A stretch of 64,000 nt of DNA. It comes from Deltaproteobacteria bacterium. Its GTDB lineage: Bacteria; Desulfobacterota; DSM-4660; Desulfatiglandales; HGW-15. Shown here piece by piece: positions 28,860 to 63,020 of the stretch (position 1 is the first letter of the stretch; every line of letters starts with the position of its first letter). Both the position numbers and the translations under genes were made by a program. Where the stretch lies: the NCBI GenBank assembly GCA_016931115.1, contig JAFGFM010000144.1, positions 1 to 64,000 of the forward strand, read 5' to 3'. A model generated the notes under the pieces. That model searched no databases. It was not told the origin of the DNA and saw only the letters and a list, made by a program, of their open reading frames with translations.

Positions 28860-29609
28860 TTATAAATCCTCCTCAACCGGATATTCATAATTCTGAAATG
28901 TCCTGGCAATCATGATGTCCATAGACTTGAGCCTCTTTCCCTGCTGGTTTATACGCTCAAATATCTTGCTCACATCTGAGGTTGAATACCCATACAGGGT
29001 AGTAACAGGCAGGCGATAATTCATAAATACATTTTTTAACTGTAAAAGACTTGTTCTTATCTGTTCGGTACAGTTACCCTTTTCAGTAAGAGTATCTATA
29101 ATGGCTGTACCCTCAATGAAAAGATCATGAAGTGATACAAGAAAATCTTTGCATGTCTCTCTTTTTCTGCGCATGTACTCCCCTGCAAAAAAGAATTTCA
29201 AATTGTATCCGTCAAAAAAAAGCCGGTGATCAAAATTTGCCCGCTCCTTTACCATGATATTTTCTTTGTGCATGGACATGAGCATAGAGGTTGCCCTCTG
29301 CTGACCGTCCAGGATATAAACATATCTTTTGGCTTTACATGCCTCATCATAATGTATTGCACCGCCAGGCCGTCTGTGGATATTAAGCCTTGTACCGGTT
29401 TCCCAGCACAGTATGTTGCCTATAGGGTAAAACATATAAATACTCTCCCACAGGCTTATGATATCATCCTGCCCCCATACGAACTCCCGCTGAAATGAAG
29501 GGATTAAGATATGACCTGCGGACAGGCTATTTACAAAATCAATAATTCCTGTATCTATGGTTTTAATTGTCTTAGTCACGCTTTTCTCATTATCTGCTAT
29601 ATGAATCAT
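28860..29609 (-). CDS. DUF262 domain protein (GmrSD-like N-terminal domain)
   Basis: DUF262 is a ParB/Srx-like nucleotide-dependent domain found in anti-phage proteins such as GmrSD and BrxU. The 249-residue protein consists almost only of this domain: LIPSFQREFVWGQDDIISLW (family QR-F-W motif), IGNILCWETG, and the conserved ILDGQQRATSML. The C-terminal HNH nuclease (DUF1524) of full GmrSD proteins is missing. It may be a regulator or NTP sensor for a partner nuclease. It diverges from the primase-helicase gene across a 97-nt AT-rich gap, which suggests shared control. Confidence 0.85.
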   Translation of the reverse strand: MIHIADNEKSVTKTIKTIDTGIIDFVNSLSAGHILIPSFQREFVWGQDDIISLWESIYMFYPIGNILCWETGTRLNIHRRPGGAIHYDEACKAKRYVYILDGQQRATSMLMSMHKENIMVKERANFDHRLFFDGYNLKFFFAGEYMRRKRETCKDFLVSLHDLFIEGTAIIDTLTEKGNCTEQIRTSLLQLKNVFMNYRLPVTTLYGYSTSDVSKIFERINQQGKRLKSMDIMIARTFQNYEYPVEEDL

Positions 29610-29706: not shown

Positions 29707-32625
29707 ATGAACTATCAGGACCTACTCAGGGAAAATAACAGGTTAAAAAATGAGGTGGAACGACTAACCTCGGAAAACAACAGATTAAGACTGTTAATCG
29801 ATGAAGAGTCTCATAGTATCATTAATGTAAAAAGCGATAATTTTATCAGTCAACCTGCCCCTGATATTCTACATCCTGAAAACACCTCTCACCCTGAAGT
29901 AACAAACCATTCAGACACCCAATCAAAGATCAAATTATTCATGTCGCTGTTTAAAGGTCGTGAGGATGTCTATGCAACACGATGGGAAAACAAAAAGAGG
30001 TCAGGTTCAGGTTATTCACCCGTCTGCCTGAATCAATGGCATAAGGATTTATGTGGCAAACCAAAAATCCCATGCTCAAAATGCAAGAACAGTTCATATG
30101 CGCCATTAAATGAAAGGGTGATAGAGGATCACCTGCGTGGAAATATCATTGCAGGGGTTTATCCCATGATGCTGGATGAAACCTGTTACTTTCTTGCAAT
30201 AGATTTTGATAAGGAGGGATGGCAGAAAGACATCTCTATTTTAAGAGATGTCTGTAATGGGTTTCATATACCTGTAGCAATAGAACGCTCACGGTCAGGA
30301 AATGGCGGGCATGCATGGTTTTTCTTTGAAGACCGATTACCCGCAACTCTAGCCAGGAGATTAGGCACTGCCCTTTTAACATACTCCATGAATAAAAGAC
30401 ATGAGATCAGATTTAAATCCTATGACCGATTTTTTCCAAATCAGGATACACTTCCAAAGGGTGGGTTTGGAAATCTCATAGCATTACCCTTCCAGAAGGA
30501 GGCAAGAAAAAAACAGAACAGCGAATTCATCAATGAAGATTTTGAGCCATACCCTGATCAATGGGCATTCTTGTCATCAATTAAAAAGATAAACGAGGAT
30601 CAGGTCGGACAATTTATTGCAGACCTATCACATGGACATGAATTGGGTGAGTTGAAGATCGATGATGAGGAAGACCCTAAGCCGTGGGAGACCACCAGAA
30701 AAATATCTATTAGTAAAAATGATCTCCCTCAAGTAATTGATGTCGTAAAATCAAATATGCTCTATATCGAAAAGAAAGGTATATCCGAAAAGGCGCTTAA
30801 CCACCTTAAAAGACTGGCATCGTTTAAAAACCCCGAGTTCTACAGGCATCAGGCTATGCATCTCTCAACGCATGATTATCCCAGGGTTATTTCGTGCGCT
30901 GATGTAACAAAGGATTATCTTTGCCTGCCAAGGGGCTGTGAAATGGAATTGTTTGAAGAACTATCGATTCTTGATGTTGAAGCCAGGTTAATGGACAAGA
31001 CAAACCATGGCAGAAAAATAGATGTGGAATTCAAGGGATCATTAAGAGAAGAACAATCTTTCGCCCTTAATCGGATGTTAAGTCATGATATAGGGATATT
31101 ATCAGGCTCGACTGCATTTGGTAAAACAGTGGTCGCAATCAGATTAATTGCAGAAAGAAAGGTAAATACCCTTATTCTGGTTGATAAGGTAAACCTGCTT
31201 AACCAGTGGGTAGATCGCCTGAATCAATTTCTTGTTATAAATGAACCTTTACCCTATGAACACGATTCAAATCCGAAAAGAGGCAGGAAAAAGCGAACAG
31301 GTATTATCGGACAATTTGGTGGAGGGAAAAACACCCTGAATGGGGTAATAGATATCGCGTTAATGCAGTCTCTTGTGCGCATGGGAGAGGTAAAGGATTA
31401 TGTAAAAGATTATGGGATGATAATTGCGGATGAATGCCATCATGCCTCGGCCTTTAGCTATGAAAGCATTTTAAAGGCTTCAACAGCGAAATATGTGTAT
31501 GGCCTTACTGCCACCCCGACCCGAAAGGATGGACATCATCCCATACTGTATATGCAGTGCGGCCCTATACGTTATCGTGATAACCCTAAAAAACAGGCGG
31601 AGAACCGGCCCTTTGATCATTTTGTTATACCCAGATTTACCTCCCTGAGAATACCTTTTGATAGAAACGAAAAGGATATCGGTATTAATGATATCTACCC
31701 GGATATGATAACAAGTGATTTTCGCAATCAGCAGATTATCACAGATGTTGTTACATGTCACAAGCTTGGAAGAAACTCTGTTGTGCTTTCCCAGCGGACA
31801 GATCATGTTGACCTGCTTACTGAAAAGCTCAGGGAGGAGATACCCGATGTTATAAAACTGACAGGTAAGATAGGCAATAAACAGGCCCGTGAAGCCATTA
31901 TGCAGATCAAGGATTTTCCATCTGACATAAATATTACTATTGTAGCTACAGGCCCTTATATAGGAGAAGGTTTTGATGAGCCACGCCTGGACACATTGTT
32001 TCTCGTAATGCCCATATCCTGGAAAGGGACCCTGCAACAGTATGCTGGCAGGCTCCACCGGTTGTTTGAGAGTAAAAAGGATGTCCTGATATATGATTAT
32101 GTGGATGTCCATATCAGGATGCTGGAAAAGATGTATTGCAAACGCCAGAGCGGATATGCATCTATGGGGTACAAGATAAAAGGCGACGCTATGGATTCGG
32201 CAGCAGTGGATATTATTTATAATAGGGACAATTTTTTACCTGTCTTTTCAAATGATATGATCAATGCAAAAAAAGAGATCCTGATCGTAAGCCCATATGT
32301 TAAAAAAAGAAGGGTCTTGCAGATGGCGCAATATATTGATGCTGCTTTACAGAATAAGGTAAGGGTAAATGTAATAACAAGGCCAGTAGAGGATTTTAAG
32401 GAAAAGGATCAGAATGCTGTAAATGCTGCATTGGACATATTAAAAGGTGCGAGCATAAAAGTTGTCTTCAGGTCCAATATTCACCAGAAATTTGCTATCA
32501 TAGATCAAAAGATAGTATGGTATGGCAGTATCAACCTCCTGAGTTTTGGTGATTCACAGGAAAGCATCATGAGACTGGATAATTTTAATACTGCTAGTGA
32601 GTTGATTAAAAGTGTTGAAGGGTAA
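29707..32625 (+). CDS. TOTE-type conflict protein: coiled coil, archaeo-eukaryotic primase, SF2 helicase, PLD nuclease
   Basis: The 972-residue protein has an N-terminal leucine-zipper-like coil (residues 3-36), a Cys cluster (C107, C116, C123, C126) inside an archaeo-eukaryotic-type primase domain (about 75-290; catalytic AIDFD at 164-168, His202 in GGHAWFFFE, and RFFPNQD), an SF2 helicase (Walker A GSTAFGKT near 461, DECHH near 574, arginine-finger region QYAGRLHRL), and a C-terminal phospholipase-D-type half-site HQKFAIID near 925. This order matches the TOTE conflict systems described from comparative genomics, thought to be NTP-dependent defence proteins. The target nucleic acid is unknown. 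Divergent DUF262 and convergent restriction genes surround it. Confidence 0.88.
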   Translation: MNYQDLLRENNRLKNEVERLTSENNRLRLLIDEESHSIINVKSDNFISQPAPDILHPENTSHPEVTNHSDTQSKIKLFMSLFKGREDVYATRWENKKRSGSGYSPVCLNQWHKDLCGKPKIPCSKCKNSSYAPLNERVIEDHLRGNIIAGVYPMMLDETCYFLAIDFDKEGWQKDISILRDVCNGFHIPVAIERSRSGNGGHAWFFFEDRLPATLARRLGTALLTYSMNKRHEIRFKSYDRFFPNQDTLPKGGFGNLIALPFQKEARKKQNSEFINEDFEPYPDQWAFLSSIKKINEDQVGQFIADLSHGHELGELKIDDEEDPKPWETTRKISISKNDLPQVIDVVKSNMLYIEKKGISEKALNHLKRLASFKNPEFYRHQAMHLSTHDYPRVISCADVTKDYLCLPRGCEMELFEELSILDVEARLMDKTNHGRKIDVEFKGSLREEQSFALNRMLSHDIGILSGSTAFGKTVVAIRLIAERKVNTLILVDKVNLLNQWVDRLNQFLVINEPLPYEHDSNPKRGRKKRTGIIGQFGGGKNTLNGVIDIALMQSLVRMGEVKDYVKDYGMIIADECHHASAFSYESILKASTAKYVYGLTATPTRKDGHHPILYMQCGPIRYRDNPKKQAENRPFDHFVIPRFTSLRIPFDRNEKDIGINDIYPDMITSDFRNQQIITDVVTCHKLGRNSVVLSQRTDHVDLLTEKLREEIPDVIKLTGKIGNKQAREAIMQIKDFPSDINITIVATGPYIGEGFDEPRLDTLFLVMPISWKGTLQQYAGRLHRLFESKKDVLIYDYVDVHIRMLEKMYCKRQSGYASMGYKIKGDAMDSAAVDIIYNRDNFLPVFSNDMINAKKEILIVSPYVKKRRVLQMAQYIDAALQNKVRVNVITRPVEDFKEKDQNAVNAALDILKGASIKVVFRSNIHQKFAIIDQKIVWYGSINLLSFGDSQESIMRLDNFNTASELIKSVEG

Positions 32626-32678: not shown

Positions 32679-33311
32679 CTAAACAGAAAGAAAAAGATGA
32701 AAGATTATAAATGATTTCGATGCCAAATCATGATGAGTTTCATCAATTACTTTTGCAGATATTATGTCCGATTTTTTGAGTCTTCCGGGTGGTTTAATCT
32801 TCAGTTCATTACATTTGGTTTGGATATAGTTATCAATACCGGTTCGAGCACTTTGAATATCTTCATCAAAAACATACCCGAGCATTGCGCCGGATCTCAT
32901 AAAAGGCGCGTATTGCCCACTGATAAAGCGCATCATTCCTTCGTTAACATATGCACTATTTCCGGGAACGAATTGTCCGCTGGGAGAAATATAGCGTAAT
33001 CTTTTGGCCTCAATAGCAAAATATGTCTGAAATCCCAGAGTTGATGGCACAAGTAAATCGATCTGCCCGTCTATACTGTCTTCATCTGTGTCAGTTAAGG
33101 GTATCTGAGGTTGTAGCTGAATGCTAAATGGCCCATCGCGGAATGGATAATCCCTTATTAATTTTTTATGTAAACGAATGGTTATAAGATTTTCTTTTTC
33201 AGATGCTGTTTTCTTTCGTAATGTTTGACCTCCCAGAACAATTGCCCGTAAAATTATCTGGATATCTTTTTGAGGGAAAAGTTGAATAAATGCATTAGAG
33301 GCATGTTCCAA
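32679..33311 (-). CDS. PD-(D/E)XK-type nuclease, restriction partner
   Basis: The 210-residue protein carries a PD-(D/E)XK-like core: acidic SIDGQIDLLVPS (Asp85), a strand FQTYFAI and EAKRL (Glu101-x-Lys103). A helix-rich C terminus follows. It is not a close match to a named restriction enzyme that I recognise. It starts at TTG 33311, 2 nt after the methyltransferase stop, with GGAG inside the end of that gene, so the two are translationally coupled. I infer that it is the cleavage subunit of the operon's restriction-modification system. Confidence 0.65.
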   Translation of the reverse strand: MEHASNAFIQLFPQKDIQIILRAIVLGGQTLRKKTASEKENLITIRLHKKLIRDYPFRDGPFSIQLQPQIPLTDTDEDSIDGQIDLLVPSTLGFQTYFAIEAKRLRYISPSGQFVPGNSAYVNEGMMRFISGQYAPFMRSGAMLGYVFDEDIQSARTGIDNYIQTKCNELKIKPPGRLKKSDIISAKVIDETHHDLASKSFIIFHLFLSV

Positions 33312-33313
33312 AA

Positions 33314-36300
33314 TTAAGGCTCCTTTTTAGCCAAAGCGATCTCAGCATATATCTTTGCCGCATCATTTAAGGCAGCTGTTCGAGTCCAATTAAAAAGTAT
33401 ATTGGGTCGAATGATGAATATTCGATCCCTTAAAATATAAAAAATATCCCGCTCGTAAACCAGCTTTCCTTTTTTTCTTGATACTTGTTTTTGGAGTTTT
33501 ATGAATAGATCAGCATTGTTTTCAAATAGCGGAGCTTCTTTGTAATGAGCTATACTGTTTGATATATAAACTGAAACCATGGCCAAGCCAATTTTTTCGT
33601 CAATACACCCTTCAGCACTTACACGATATTTTGAACCTTCTGCCTGAGCCCATTCGTTTAATGTATTTGTCAGTGTTTCTGCGTAGGGTTTTAATCTTTC
33701 TCCGTAATAAGGTTTAATCTTCGTATTTTGTAGGGGCTCTATGGTTACTGTTTTAGGAGTTCGCCAGGTTGTTGGCGTTGAACTGGGAATAAAAATATTG
33801 ATTGTATCTTCTATAAGGGTAATTTCCTGCTGTGTAAGTTCGAAATACTTATATATTAATGGTTCCAATTCTTTCTGGAGTAGATCAACCTTTTCTTTTC
33901 TTTCTTTTTGCCATTTTTTGCTGAGGGCTTCATTTCCTAAGGGAAAGATAGCATGACCTTTGGGAGCCGCACTTAATTCGTTCCACATATCATTAAGTTC
34001 ATAGTGGAGCTTGTCTATTTTTTTAGTTACATTTTTAATGATTTGTTCAGCGTCAGGTGAAATGAATTCGTCTCCTGGTAAGCCGAAGGGAACCCGCAGT
34101 AATTCAAAAAGATGGACTTTATCTCTCTCACTTCCCCAGTTAGCTGATGTATGGAATAGAAAGTATTTAGCAAGATTTGATCGTAAATAAACAGCAAGAA
34201 ATTTTAAAAGATATGTATCTTCTAGAGGACCTGAAATTGAATGGAAACTATTCTGGAAGAGAACATCGAAATCACTATAAGCAACTTTCCCAAAGCCTTG
34301 ACTCACGAGAACTATAGGTGTCTTAAACAAATCTGGAGGAGGCTGGCTATAAAATACATCTGTTCGATAATGCCCTTCTTTTAACATTGATTCTAACGAT
34401 ATTGTATCATATTGAGATAGAATTAAATCAGAACACCACCATGATGCCTTTATGCATTTTGTATTCAAAGGCCATTTGATTTTTTTAGGATTACGATCTG
34501 CGTCTTTTTCAAGTTTCTTGTCCGGCCAAGGTTTTAATCCTTGTCCTGCTATCCATCTTTTAGTCTGTTTTTCTCCTCGTAATCTCAAATTGCTTAGTAC
34601 ATCTACATGGTTTTCTAGAGAAGGGATTGATTGCATTATATCGAAAAACTTTTGATCTCTATTTGTACCCCAAAGGCGTTTCTTCCAGACTAAAGGAGCC
34701 ATTTTGTTTTTTGATGCACTGAGAATTTCAGATAAATGTATCCAGGAACTGGCGGATGGGTTAATGGTAATAACACCTTTTCTAAGCCCATCACGATTGA
34801 ATTTGGGAGCATTGAACTCTATCTGGTGTTGCCCTGCATGAGGTGAAGAGTTCTTAAACCGTGCAATAATGGCCGGACATAAGGCATTTTGAAAAAGAAC
34901 AAACCTATAATCAGCGAGTTGGATAACCTTTTCCAGTGTCACAGATTTTAACCACTCACCTTGAAAAGAGTCCGTCTGATTCTGTATTATTTTAGAAGGT
35001 AAAAGAAGGCAGCCAATCCCTTGCTCAATAAGATATTGTGGAGCCTTCTCAAGGAATTTCTGCGCAAGTTGTTTGCTTTGACGACCTTTCCATGGTGGAT
35101 TGCCTACAATACAATCGAATGTTTTATTCTTAAAGAGTTCTCCCTTTAAAAAATCGGCTTTATGAATAACAGGGATATCAGCCGTTGAACGATCAACCTC
35201 ATCGCCATAATCCAGAAGTTTTGGAAGGGGCTTCCCTGTTTTTTCAACATATTCATTTATATCGCATGGATCAAAAAAGTCCAGATATGCAAGATAAAGG
35301 CTGAAACACGCTATTCTGCATGCAGTTACTTCCACATCAATGCCTCGAATCTGCCTGTCAAGGATCTGATTTAGAGCCTTTGCTTTTGTCGTATAATGTA
35401 TGTGACCTGTTTGCGAATAGATCCAAAAATTAGCAAGTCGGTTGAATAGTGTAACCAGGAAAATACCTGAACCACACGCAGGGTCGAGGTATGACCAGTC
35501 ATATGCCTTCATATCTCCATTTAATGCCACATCAATAACCATCTCTGCCAAAAATCTGGGAGTATAAAAAGCCCCTCGTTCTTTTTGATTTTCCTGATCT
35601 TCTGCCCCCAGAAAGTCTTGATAAATGGCGCTGATTGTTTCAACCGGGATCATCTTAAAATCATATACCCAAAATCCCAGGGTCTTTTGTCCGGTTTGAA
35701 CCTGGTGCCCGCCAAGAAAATCCACTAATTTATTTAGATGCTCGGGTAGTATTTTTTTTGCTTCTGAATCAAGGGCTTGGTCAAACATATTTCCATTGAA
35801 GCGTTCCCTGAGATCATTAAAAAGATTCCCATAAAGATAATTAATTCTATCTTTAAAAGAAAGTGATTCCAGTTTAGATGCCAAGAGCATGGTGCCGGTT
35901 TGATTTGGCGCAAGAGTACCAATTGAGTATATTCTCCGATCAAGAAGATAACAGAGGAATAAAATCCGCCCGATCAAAGAATGGGCATCTTTGATTTCAA
36001 GGCCTTTATCACCTTCAGTCAATGCATTTCGGAGCGCCTTCAGGTTATCAAGAAGCCATGAATCTACAGATTGTTCCGGATCAAATTTCTGATAATGTGT
36101 TTCATAATAATGACCGGAGGCAAGATCATGATACATAGCTTTTATGCGATGCACATACTCGACAAGGGTTAGCTCTTCAACAAGTCCTTTTCCCTTCTCA
36201 ATATCATTATCATCTTGTGGAGGTGTACCGAGGCCGGAATATATGTATACGGTTGTAGGGTCAGTCAGGACAAGGAGGTTACAAATACCCTGGTTCCAGA

Positions 36301-36544
36301 AAAGCTTTTGAAGACGAACTCGTTCATTCACAGTAAAGGGCCGACCATGCTCTTTAAGATAAAGGACAGGGCGTCCATCTACACATAAAACGCCATCAAG
36401 ATTTAGTTCATTCCATGCACGCCTGATTGCAGACCAATACCCTATCACATTAAGATCATTACATGCCGATTCAAGAGAGTTGTAGAATAGCATCCCGGAA
36501 GGGGGGGACATGTGTTCATTAATAAGGTTTGGCTTTGCTACCAT
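33314..36544 (-). CDS. Large N6-adenine DNA methyltransferase (type II/IIG-like)
   Basis: The 1076-residue protein has an N-terminal domain of about 300 residues of unknown role (WSAIRRAWNELNLDGVLCVD; LLVLTDPTTVYIYSG), then an amino-methyltransferase core: KERGAFYTPRFLAEMVID, motif I DPACGSGIFL (about residue 352) and motif IV NPPW (about 480), which marks N6-adenine methylation. A long C-terminal part probably reads the DNA target (TaqI-like specificity region). I do not see a clear PD-(D/E)XK site in it, so cleavage is probably done by the next gene. It begins 17 nt after the lexA-like stop. Confidence 0.88.
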   Translation of the reverse strand: MVAKPNLINEHMSPPSGMLFYNSLESACNDLNVIGYWSAIRRAWNELNLDGVLCVDGRPVLYLKEHGRPFTVNERVRLQKLFWNQGICNLLVLTDPTTVYIYSGLGTPPQDDNDIEKGKGLVEELTLVEYVHRIKAMYHDLASGHYYETHYQKFDPEQSVDSWLLDNLKALRNALTEGDKGLEIKDAHSLIGRILFLCYLLDRRIYSIGTLAPNQTGTMLLASKLESLSFKDRINYLYGNLFNDLRERFNGNMFDQALDSEAKKILPEHLNKLVDFLGGHQVQTGQKTLGFWVYDFKMIPVETISAIYQDFLGAEDQENQKERGAFYTPRFLAEMVIDVALNGDMKAYDWSYLDPACGSGIFLVTLFNRLANFWIYSQTGHIHYTTKAKALNQILDRQIRGIDVEVTACRIACFSLYLAYLDFFDPCDINEYVEKTGKPLPKLLDYGDEVDRSTADIPVIHKADFLKGELFKNKTFDCIVGNPPWKGRQSKQLAQKFLEKAPQYLIEQGIGCLLLPSKIIQNQTDSFQGEWLKSVTLEKVIQLADYRFVLFQNALCPAIIARFKNSSPHAGQHQIEFNAPKFNRDGLRKGVITINPSASSWIHLSEILSASKNKMAPLVWKKRLWGTNRDQKFFDIMQSIPSLENHVDVLSNLRLRGEKQTKRWIAGQGLKPWPDKKLEKDADRNPKKIKWPLNTKCIKASWWCSDLILSQYDTISLESMLKEGHYRTDVFYSQPPPDLFKTPIVLVSQGFGKVAYSDFDVLFQNSFHSISGPLEDTYLLKFLAVYLRSNLAKYFLFHTSANWGSERDKVHLFELLRVPFGLPGDEFISPDAEQIIKNVTKKIDKLHYELNDMWNELSAAPKGHAIFPLGNEALSKKWQKERKEKVDLLQKELEPLIYKYFELTQQEITLIEDTINIFIPSSTPTTWRTPKTVTIEPLQNTKIKPYYGERLKPYAETLTNTLNEWAQAEGSKYRVSAEGCIDEKIGLAMVSVYISNSIAHYKEAPLFENNADLFIKLQKQVSRKKGKLVYERDIFYILRDRIFIIRPNILFNWTRTAALNDAAKIYAEIALAKKEP

Positions 36545-36561
36545 ATCTTTCCATCTCTTCG

Positions 36562-37182
36562 TTATAAGCGCCTTAAAACGGCTTTTGCAACACCCTGGAC
36601 AATCATCTCATCAAATGGAGTATAGTCCTTAAAAAGAGGATTTTCTGATTTAAGGTAATAATTGCCTTCTTTTATTGCCAATGTTTTAAGCGTATTCTCT
36701 CCATCAATCAAGGCAACTACAATATCACCTTCTTTGGGTTGAATGTCTGCATCAGCAATGACCCAATCGCCGCTAAAAATAGCACGCTCTTTCATTGAGT
36801 CACCATTAACAGTCAAAGCAAAAAGCCGATGTTCAGCCTTGATCCCAAAAATTGCTAGATCAACGTTTATGTCTGCGTTCCTATTCGCTACTTGCTTCTG
36901 CGGATGCCCTGCATTGATTTCACCTAGTATCGGAATAGCATTAACCGCAGTTTTTTTTTCTGAGATAAGGAGTTCAATACCACGGGAGCGCCCCCGATGG
37001 CAACGTAAAAACCCTTTTTTTTCCAATGCGCGAACATGGTCCACCGCTGCTTTAGGGCTTTTGTATTCGAAATGTTCTGCTATTTCTCGGTAGGTAGGGG
37101 AAGCCCCTTCTTCGCGTATTTTATCTTTTATAAAATTAAGAACCTCCCGTTGTTTTGGTGATATATTTAATGGACTATACAT
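36562..37182 (-). CDS. LexA-like self-cleaving repressor heading a restriction-modification operon
   Basis: The 206-residue protein has a LexA winged-helix DNA-binding domain (residues 1-70: ISPKQREVLNFIKDKI, SPTYREIAEHF, SRGIELL) and an S24 peptidase domain. Everything needed for RecA-stimulated autocleavage is present: the Ala91-Gly92 bond in EINAGHP, Ser129 in NGDSM and Lys166 in ENTLKTL. It is the first gene of a three-gene operon with the methyltransferase and nuclease. The ATG lies inside a perfect palindrome and only 4 nt from a TACTAT -10 box, so the mRNA may be leaderless and the gene self-repressed. It could be the host LexA, but linkage to restriction genes suggests a dedicated copy. 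Confidence 0.88.
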   Translation of the reverse strand: MYSPLNISPKQREVLNFIKDKIREEGASPTYREIAEHFEYKSPKAAVDHVRALEKKGFLRCHRGRSRGIELLISEKKTAVNAIPILGEINAGHPQKQVANRNADINVDLAIFGIKAEHRLFALTVNGDSMKERAIFSGDWVIADADIQPKEGDIVVALIDGENTLKTLAIKEGNYYLKSENPLFKDYTPFDEMIVQGVAKAVLRRL

Positions 37183-37191
37183 TTGTATAGT
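37174..37191. promoter_or_regulatory. Perfect palindromic operator over the lexA-like start codon
   Basis: ACTATACATTTGTATAGT has perfect 8-bp arms and a 2-bp centre. It covers the ATG (37180-37182) and overlaps the candidate -10 box. It is unlike the CTG-N10-CAG box of gammaproteobacterial LexA. Binding here would block transcription and perhaps translation start. Confidence 0.7.
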
Positions 37192-37217
37192 ATGAATTAA
37201 ACAAGATAGTATGTCAA
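37187..37217 (-). promoter_or_regulatory. Candidate sigma-70 promoter of the lexA-like operon
   Basis: Minus-strand TTGACA (37212-37217) and TACTAT (37187-37192) are 19 bp apart, slightly wide. The predicted transcription start falls at or next to the ATG, giving a leaderless message. The -10 box lies in the palindromic operator. Confidence 0.5.
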
Positions 37218-61844: not shown

Positions 61845-61874
61845 GTAATGCAGAAACACTTGGAGGAAACAGGA

Positions 61875-63020
61875 ATGCTCAACATAAAAAACATTGAGCA
61901 AAAAATTGAAATGCTTGGATTGTCTCAAGCTGAGATAGCTAAATCATTGGATGTTACAAGGGAGACAGTATCACAATGGTTTAAAAATAATAAATTCCCC
62001 CGTCCTGGTAAATTACTAAAACTTGCTCAATTATTGAAACTTTCTTTTAATGAGATAGTCATCAAAGAAGACAGATCTAACGAACCTGTCGTTGCATTCA
62101 GAAAAAAAGGCAGACATAACATATCAGAAGATTACATCGAAGAGGCAAAAGACAAAGGCTATCTCTTGAACAGCCTTGTTCAATACTTACCTTTTGATAA
62201 TTTATCATTACCACCATCCTTAAAAGAACCTAATTTGGATTATGAATATATCCAGGATGCTGCAAGGGCTGTAAGAAAAGAAATATGTAAATCAAATGAT
62301 TCAAAAATCGAATTTACAGATTTAATCAATTTTTTCAATAAACATCATGCTGTTTTAATTCCTGTGTTCTGGGGCAATAAAAAAAATCATGAAAACGCAT
62401 TACACGTATTTCTACCCAGATCAATGACAACATGGATATACTTAAATCTTGACAGTAAAATACACGATTTTAAATTCTGGATGTCTCATGAGCTTGGGCA
62501 TGTCAAATCACCCGATTTAAAAGGTGATGAAGCTGAAGACTTTGCAGATCTGTTTGCAGGGGCTTTATTATTTAATTCGGAACTTGCACAGGAAGAATAT
62601 ATTCAATTAAGGAGATTAACAAACGAGCCCTCCCAGCTAAGCAGAATTATGGAAGTGGCAGAGAATTTAGTCGTTTCTCCGCTAACTGTTTATTATGAGA
62701 TTAACAAATATGCCAGGCATGATGGAAAACAAAAAATTAATCTCGAAACAGATAAGCTCATTTATAAGGCCAATACCAATTTTCAGAATAAATATTCTAC
62801 TATTGCAAATAAATTATTTTCTGCTCTGCCTGCGACATCAAAGGAATATTTTTCAGTAACAACCGAGGTATTTAAAAGCCCATTTTTTAAAGCTTTAAAA
62901 GACTACCTGATTAAAGAAAGAAAATCTGTTGGATTCGTACAGACTATTCTGAGCCTCTCACCGGTTGATGCACAGACATTATATGAAGATCTATTCCAAT
63001 GGCCTGCAATATCCTTGTAG
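61875..63020 (+). CDS. XRE regulator with ImmA/IrrE metallopeptidase domain
   Basis: From ATG 61875 (GGAGG 8 nt upstream) the protein of about 381 residues has an XRE helix-turn-helix (residues 5-62: LGLSQAEIAKSLDVTRETVS) and an ImmA/IrrE zinc peptidase (about 120-260) with SHELGHV, zinc ligands His205 and His209, catalytic Glu206 and downstream acidic EAEDFADLFAG. A helical C-terminal part follows. Such proteins are antitoxins or repressors that can cleave a partner regulator. The next gene encodes a PIN-like protein and overlaps by 22 nt, so I infer an antitoxin-toxin pair. Confidence 0.88.
   Translation: MLNIKNIEQKIEMLGLSQAEIAKSLDVTRETVSQWFKNNKFPRPGKLLKLAQLLKLSFNEIVIKEDRSNEPVVAFRKKGRHNISEDYIEEAKDKGYLLNSLVQYLPFDNLSLPPSLKEPNLDYEYIQDAARAVRKEICKSNDSKIEFTDLINFFNKHHAVLIPVFWGNKKNHENALHVFLPRSMTTWIYLNLDSKIHDFKFWMSHELGHVKSPDLKGDEAEDFADLFAGALLFNSELAQEEYIQLRRLTNEPSQLSRIMEVAENLVVSPLTVYYEINKYARHDGKQKINLETDKLIYKANTNFQNKYSTIANKLFSALPATSKEYFSVTTEVFKSPFFKALKDYLIKERKSVGFVQTILSLSPVDAQTLYEDLFQWPAISL

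Follow-up and report, generated by a model that had tools for sequence, protein, structure and literature searches.

The window, as we call the whole stretch of 64,000 nucleotides analysed here, carries a three-gene operon on its minus strand between positions 32679 and 37182. The gene for a LexA-like protein comes first, followed after 17 nt by the gene for a large methyltransferase, which in turn lies 2 nt from the gene for a putative nuclease. The operon belongs to uncultured bacteria of the sulfate-reducer type. This order and spacing of the genes, described in an initial annotation of the DNA, agree with the gene coordinates, and the end assigned there to the locus, position 37191, coincides with the end of a predicted operator. 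The features of the locus are:

36562..37182, minus strand: predicted self-cleaving repressor of the LexA family, 206 aa, encoded at the head of the operon (PF01726 and PF00717, TIGR00498 over cut-off)
33314..36544, minus strand: gamma-class N6-adenine DNA methyltransferase with a target-recognition region, 1076 aa (N6_Mtase/Eco57I/MmeI_Mtase matches, PADLOC type IIG, model matches)
32679..33311, minus strand: putative PD-(D/E)XK nuclease, 210 aa, TTG start (conserved E40, D85 and E101-x-K103; model)
37174..37191, no strand assigned: predicted operator ACTATACAAATGTATAGT, a perfect 7-bp inverted repeat with a 4-bp spacer that overlaps the start codon of the lexA-like gene
37212..37217, minus strand: -35 element TTGACA (TTGACA or TTTACA in 17/17 cassette promoters of the subfamily)
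37189..37194, minus strand: candidate -10 element CATACT at 17-bp spacing, proposed from spacing analysis, adjoining or overlapping the operator
36907..36912, minus strand: codons for Ala91 and Gly92, between which cleavage is predicted; both residues are invariant in 18/18 cassette repressors
36796..36798, minus strand: codon of catalytic Ser129, invariant in the same 18/18
36685..36687, minus strand: codon of catalytic Lys166, likewise invariant in 18/18

The cassette adjoins a gene for a TOTE-conflict primase-helicase-PLD protein (window 29707-32625), and a protein with a GmrSD N-terminal domain is encoded close to it (window 28860-29609); these TOTE and GmrSD-type neighbours suggest a defence island. 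At another locus (L118) a TOTE protein likewise adjoins the cassette. Elsewhere in the window (61848-63020) lies the gene of a 390-aa protein in which an XRE-type HTH is followed by a HELGH metallopeptidase-like motif; its peptidase part has no Pfam match, and the protein resembles a CapH/CapP or ImmR/ImmA pair joined in one chain.

The LexA-like protein matches the LexA DNA-binding domain (PF01726, LexA_DNA_bind; 67.6 bits) and the Peptidase_S24 domain (PF00717; 81.2 bits), and its score against the lexA family model TIGR00498 is 154 bits, compared with a curated cut-off of 110.95. The residues that the initial annotation had picked out as needed for autocleavage hold up in the alignment: Ala91-Gly92, Ser129 and Lys166 align with the LexA cleavage site and the Ser/Lys dyad, and are kept in all 18 repressors of the subfamily, including that of its verrucomicrobial member. 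Given that the cassette repressors average only about 60% identity (in the set of 13 members compared), this invariance argues for self-cleavage being in use, although an intact Ser/Lys dyad could be kept for folding instead. The genome from which the window comes also contains a recA gene.

The assignment of the second gene to a large adenine methyltransferase is confirmed by motifs, family matches and predicted structure alike. The protein contains DPACGSG and NPPW motifs and matches N6_Mtase/Eco57I; DPxCGSG and NPPW are invariant among 20 methyltransferase sequences. Its best model in the PADLOC defence library is type IIG, and CamA, PglX/BrxX, BpuSI, DrdV and MmeI are among the matches of the structure predicted for it (pLDDT 81). 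The type IIG enzymes BpuSI, MmeI and DrdV thus have methyltransferase and recognition domains related to those of the window protein; however, they combine nuclease and methyltransferase in one chain, whereas the cassette has a separate, conserved nuclease gene, and the N-terminal domain of the window protein appears to lack a conserved nuclease motif. The product of that separate gene, at 210 aa, has no match in Pfam, NCBIfam or PADLOC. Across 18 nuclease homologues, E40 and E101-x-K103 are invariant and D85 is kept in at least 90%; the predicted model has a pLDDT of 88.7, and its best match in the PDB, a weak one (E 3e-3, prob. 0.97), is the McrC nuclease of McrBC. From the motif, the model and this weak fold match, the earlier proposal of a PD-(D/E)XK nuclease is well supported, and we retain it as a putative assignment.

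Using the methyltransferase as query against 84,980 species genomes, we found 22 relatives of 38-73% identity, mostly in deltaproteobacterial MAGs, with one in Nitrospinaceae and one in Verrucomicrobia. In 17 of the 22 the gene immediately upstream, separated by about -7 to +7 nt, is LexA-like, which answers the search for lexA-like genes 5' of the methyltransferase that had been suggested for other genomes, and the nuclease lies downstream at every relative's locus with enough contig. The arrangement, being repeated in 17 of 22 relatives, is beyond chance. Gaps within the cassettes run from about -7 to +17 nt, which makes independent transcription of the methyltransferase gene, an outcome that would have spoken against a single operon, unlikely. 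The distances among the LexA-like proteins correlate with those among the methyltransferases (r = 0.82, with 0/5000 permutations as high), a pattern that joint transfer and joint evolution of the cassette would produce. As to where the subfamily came from, an origin in phages or plasmids was rejected: no viral contig with the methyltransferase was found, viral matches to the LexA-like protein are weak and mostly limited to the DNA-binding part, and plasmid matches to the methyltransferase are below 30% identity, with other or no upstream regulators where examined.

Five of the 22 relatives do not have a full repressor: four lack the LexA gene (L117, L124, L125, L126) and one (L121) keeps only its last 35 residues. 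In these cassettes the enzymes are intact, and a TTGAC-type promoter is kept in two of them, together with a near-operator in L117 and a decayed operator in L125. Enzymes and promoters that persist without LexA favour a dispensable repressor over a required activator, and the cassette LexA looks like the former. In a further cassette (L074 / L129) the LexA-like gene and operator are intact, but the methyltransferase is cut short after some 160 conserved residues, and unrelated genes follow.

The cassette repressor genes share an 18-bp inverted repeat, ACTATAC-N4-GTWTAGY, below a TTGACA promoter. In the deltaproteobacterial subfamily all 17 repressor genes carry it in the form ACTATAC-AAAT-GTWTAGT, from which no copy departs by more than about two changes; its centre falls on the start codon, some 10 to 25 bp downstream of the TTGACA/TTTACA element. 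The verrucomicrobial repressor gene carries ACTATACatccGTTTAGC. Between cassettes, identity is 92% in the operator half that lies 5' of the ATG, versus 34% in the DNA 35-60 bp upstream. Since the operator overlaps the repressor's own start codon, the repressor is presumably autoregulated. In 16 of 17 cassettes the end of the -35 element is about 29-33 nt from the ATG, a spacing which suggests a transcript with little or no leader. The E. coli LexA box has ACTGTA arms and the consensus CTG-N10-CAG; the arms of the cassette operator, ACTATA, lie at equal distance from the centre, with CTG-N10-CAG changed to CTA-N10-TAG, so that the operator resembles a LexA box in which one position has been retuned. 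The window's own genome has a single exact palindrome site, the next best having 2 mismatches; across 61 related genomes there are 3 matches to the pattern, all of them at cassettes. Among 85 genomes of the class we found two additional exact sites (L174, L175), which we rejected as further operon targets and regard as chance occurrences because their centres differ, their neighbours are unrelated and a reversed control pattern yields similar counts.

Could the window gene simply be the host's lexA, lying by chance beside a restriction-modification (R-M) system? The initial annotation had named the absence of any other LexA from the genome as the finding that would point this way, and indeed the window protein is the only full-length LexA in the genome's own assembly, which is 98.5% complete in 240 contigs. 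Its score also exceeds the equivalog cut-off for lexA, and a search of the assembly for host-type SOS boxes, allowing up to 1 mismatch, found none. The missing second LexA proves uninformative, however. In a genus mate (G001) the host lexA belongs to a lexA-imuB-dnaE2 locus; in the window's genome the corresponding locus, 90% identical to that of the genus mate, is on contig C180, whose end falls within the small gene located between imuB and lexA in the genus mate. As the contig stops just before lexA, the host gene most likely falls in an assembly gap, and the absence of host-type boxes says equally little because the one to be expected, at lexA, would be in that gap. Several observations separate the two proteins directly. 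A phylogenetic tree places the cassette LexAs on one side of a branch with support of 100/99 and 27 host LexAs on the other, with the window protein among those linked to R-M genes and not among its own family's host LexAs, outside the lexA-imuB-dnaE2 group of the lineage. The host lexA promoters of the lineage (L043-L072, L014) contain a direct repeat, ACAGT-N7-ACAGT, which is not a palindrome and is unlike the cassette operator, and the cassette operator has one exact site genome-wide instead of sites at several repair genes. Furthermore, another genome (G029) carries both a cassette and a host-type lexA beside dnaE2. Clade and operator thus uphold a repressor distinct from host LexA, and we reject the chance placement of the host gene, which we consider highly improbable. 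The likeliest role of the window protein, to judge from its sequence and context, is that of a repressor dedicated to an R-M operon and cleavable through RecA.

More distant members of the methyltransferase/nuclease core, at about 22-26% identity, are headed by other regulators. A second LexA lineage is found at three loci (L076, L166, L167) and CI-like HTH and S24 repressors at three (L075, L015, L162); a MerR-type gene occupies the regulator position in L077, short genes with no assignment occupy it on the alphaproteobacterial plasmids L170 and L173, and L164 has no evident regulator. One enzyme core has therefore recruited S24 repressors more than once, through the second LexA lineage and through CI-S24 proteins, and it is mainly this repeated use that leads us to think that damage sensing matters. 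The genus mate provides a close comparison: its CI-S24 and methyltransferase cassette (L015, 447-4402 and 4521-6179) lies beside a radical-SAM gene that is the orthologue (81% identical) of the one flanking the window cassette, so that, within the genus, one and the same gene has a different cassette version beside it in each of the two genomes. Upstream of the second LexA lineage, CTG-N10-CAG is present in two genomes (G053, G380) and unclear in a third (G122), and shuffled sequences match some of the scores; an E. coli-type box common to this lineage is therefore kept as a lead. A 116-aa CI-S24-like C-terminal fragment in the window's own genome (G000:C165:650-1000, L002) is possibly a remnant of another S24-controlled unit.

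Starting from the operon structure, the conserved cassette, the private operator, the intact cleavage residues and the distinctness from host LexA, all of which can be read in the DNA, we hypothesize that the three genes form a mobile defence cassette under a local LexA-type repressor, and we assign this reading a probability of about 0.72. A repressor dimer would bind the palindrome, which covers both the start of transcription and the repressor's start codon, and would hold expression of all three genes, including the repressor gene, at a low basal level. When foreign or damaged DNA gives rise to RecA-ssDNA filaments, the repressor would cut itself at Ala91-Gly92; methyltransferase and nuclease, acting as an R-M pair, would then rise together until the repressor re-accumulates and resets the operon. 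The defence genes are thus probably switched up upon DNA damage or invasion. The earlier suggestion of one operon under a LexA-type repressor gains from the short gaps, the intact cleavage residues and the private operator. We stress that joint control of methyltransferase and nuclease does not by itself provide host protection during induction.

The chief rival to damage control is dosage control upon entry into a new cell. There the repressor would mainly set amount and timing: a cell that has no repressor would experience an overshoot of methyltransferase and nuclease (zygotic induction), followed by autorepression, and cleavage upon damage would be secondary or vestigial. An operator that overlaps the repressor's own start codon, the mobile and patchy distribution of the cassette and the loss of the repressor in some members all fit such a role, which nevertheless leaves unexplained why Ala-Gly, Ser and Lys are invariant (18/18) and why other lineages of the same core chose S24 proteins; on balance we find it improbable. 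The enzymes themselves might also be other than a classical R-M pair, namely a methyl-dependent nuclease, or a BREX/PglX-like or abortive methyltransferase and nuclease system that is on only in emergencies. That the nuclease's best fold match, McrC, is part of a modification-dependent enzyme, that the methyltransferase model also resembles PglX/BrxX and that one repressor stands over both enzymes are consistent with this, but the cassette has no PglZ/BrxC-type BREX partner genes, the methyltransferase falls far below the cut-offs of the BREX PglX models, and its best PADLOC model is type IIG. We regard a non-classical system as unlikely.

The window repressor has much in common with LexA (TIGR00498), the SOS master repressor: the HTH and S24 architecture, the Ala-Gly site, the Ser/Lys dyad and autoregulation. 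It differs in belonging to a separate clade, in having one genomic operator site and in its likely control of an R-M cassette and not of a DNA-repair regulon. The initial annotation had set the LexA-type switch against small C proteins, said to serve most type II R-M systems, and this was too broad: a subset of type II systems is under C-protein control (PMC3874152), and other local regulators are known. C proteins are, like the window repressor, R-M-dedicated and bind DNA, acting as activator/repressors; however, they are small and have no cleavage domain, whereas the window regulator is a LexA-type protein of 206 aa. RptR, which represses a type I island (PMC12255303), is also an R-M-dedicated DNA-binding regulator, but it is compact and single-domain, with no known damage sensing. 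CapW/BrxR, CapH+CapP and CapK+CapS are DNA-damage-responsive local controllers of defence operons (PMC13373217, PMC9122588), in which, as in the cassette, a local repressor encoded first stands over the adjacent defence operon; damage would likewise be the signal in the cassette. These are WYL, HTH+metallopeptidase and kinase+STAS proteins, respectively, none of them a LexA/S24 protein cut through RecA, and domain searches of the window repressor gave no WYL, HTH+peptidase or kinase+STAS domain. The known damage controllers of defence operons are, then, unrelated in protein family to the window repressor. The view that a LexA-type switch is a distinct control logic consequently stands as far as the protein is concerned, since none of the known controllers is of the LexA/S24 type, but not as regards the link itself, since several already tie defence operons to damage.

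Non-host repressors that control their own unit in response to damage are found in prophages (CI/S24) and in Francisella, where FddR is an S24 repressor of this kind (PMC13148647); the DNA-binding domain and the targets of these proteins differ from those of the window repressor. Restriction and damage are also linked by restriction alleviation in type I R-M systems, where restriction is lowered after DNA damage (PMC3874165), the opposite in sign to the rise in expression that we predict for the cassette. In the literature searched, chiefly non-subscription papers, we found no published description of a LexA-type controller of R-M genes. We lean towards the broader hypothesis that self-cleaving S24 repressors, of LexA and CI type, are a fourth class of local damage controllers, repeatedly recruited to one methyltransferase/nuclease core with operators retuned away from the host SOS box, through which RecA filaments would directly raise restriction, the reverse of alleviation.

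These observations bear on the open question of how defence operons stay quiet and get turned on. Among the described damage-linked controllers that we found, none uses the cell's own RecA/LexA cleavage reaction, and the cassette, which is compact and has a defined 18-bp predicted operator, may do so. Restriction would in that case be coupled to the SOS state through a private LexA, whose operator is orthogonal, while staying outside the regulon of the host, and the sign would be opposite to that of classical restriction alleviation.
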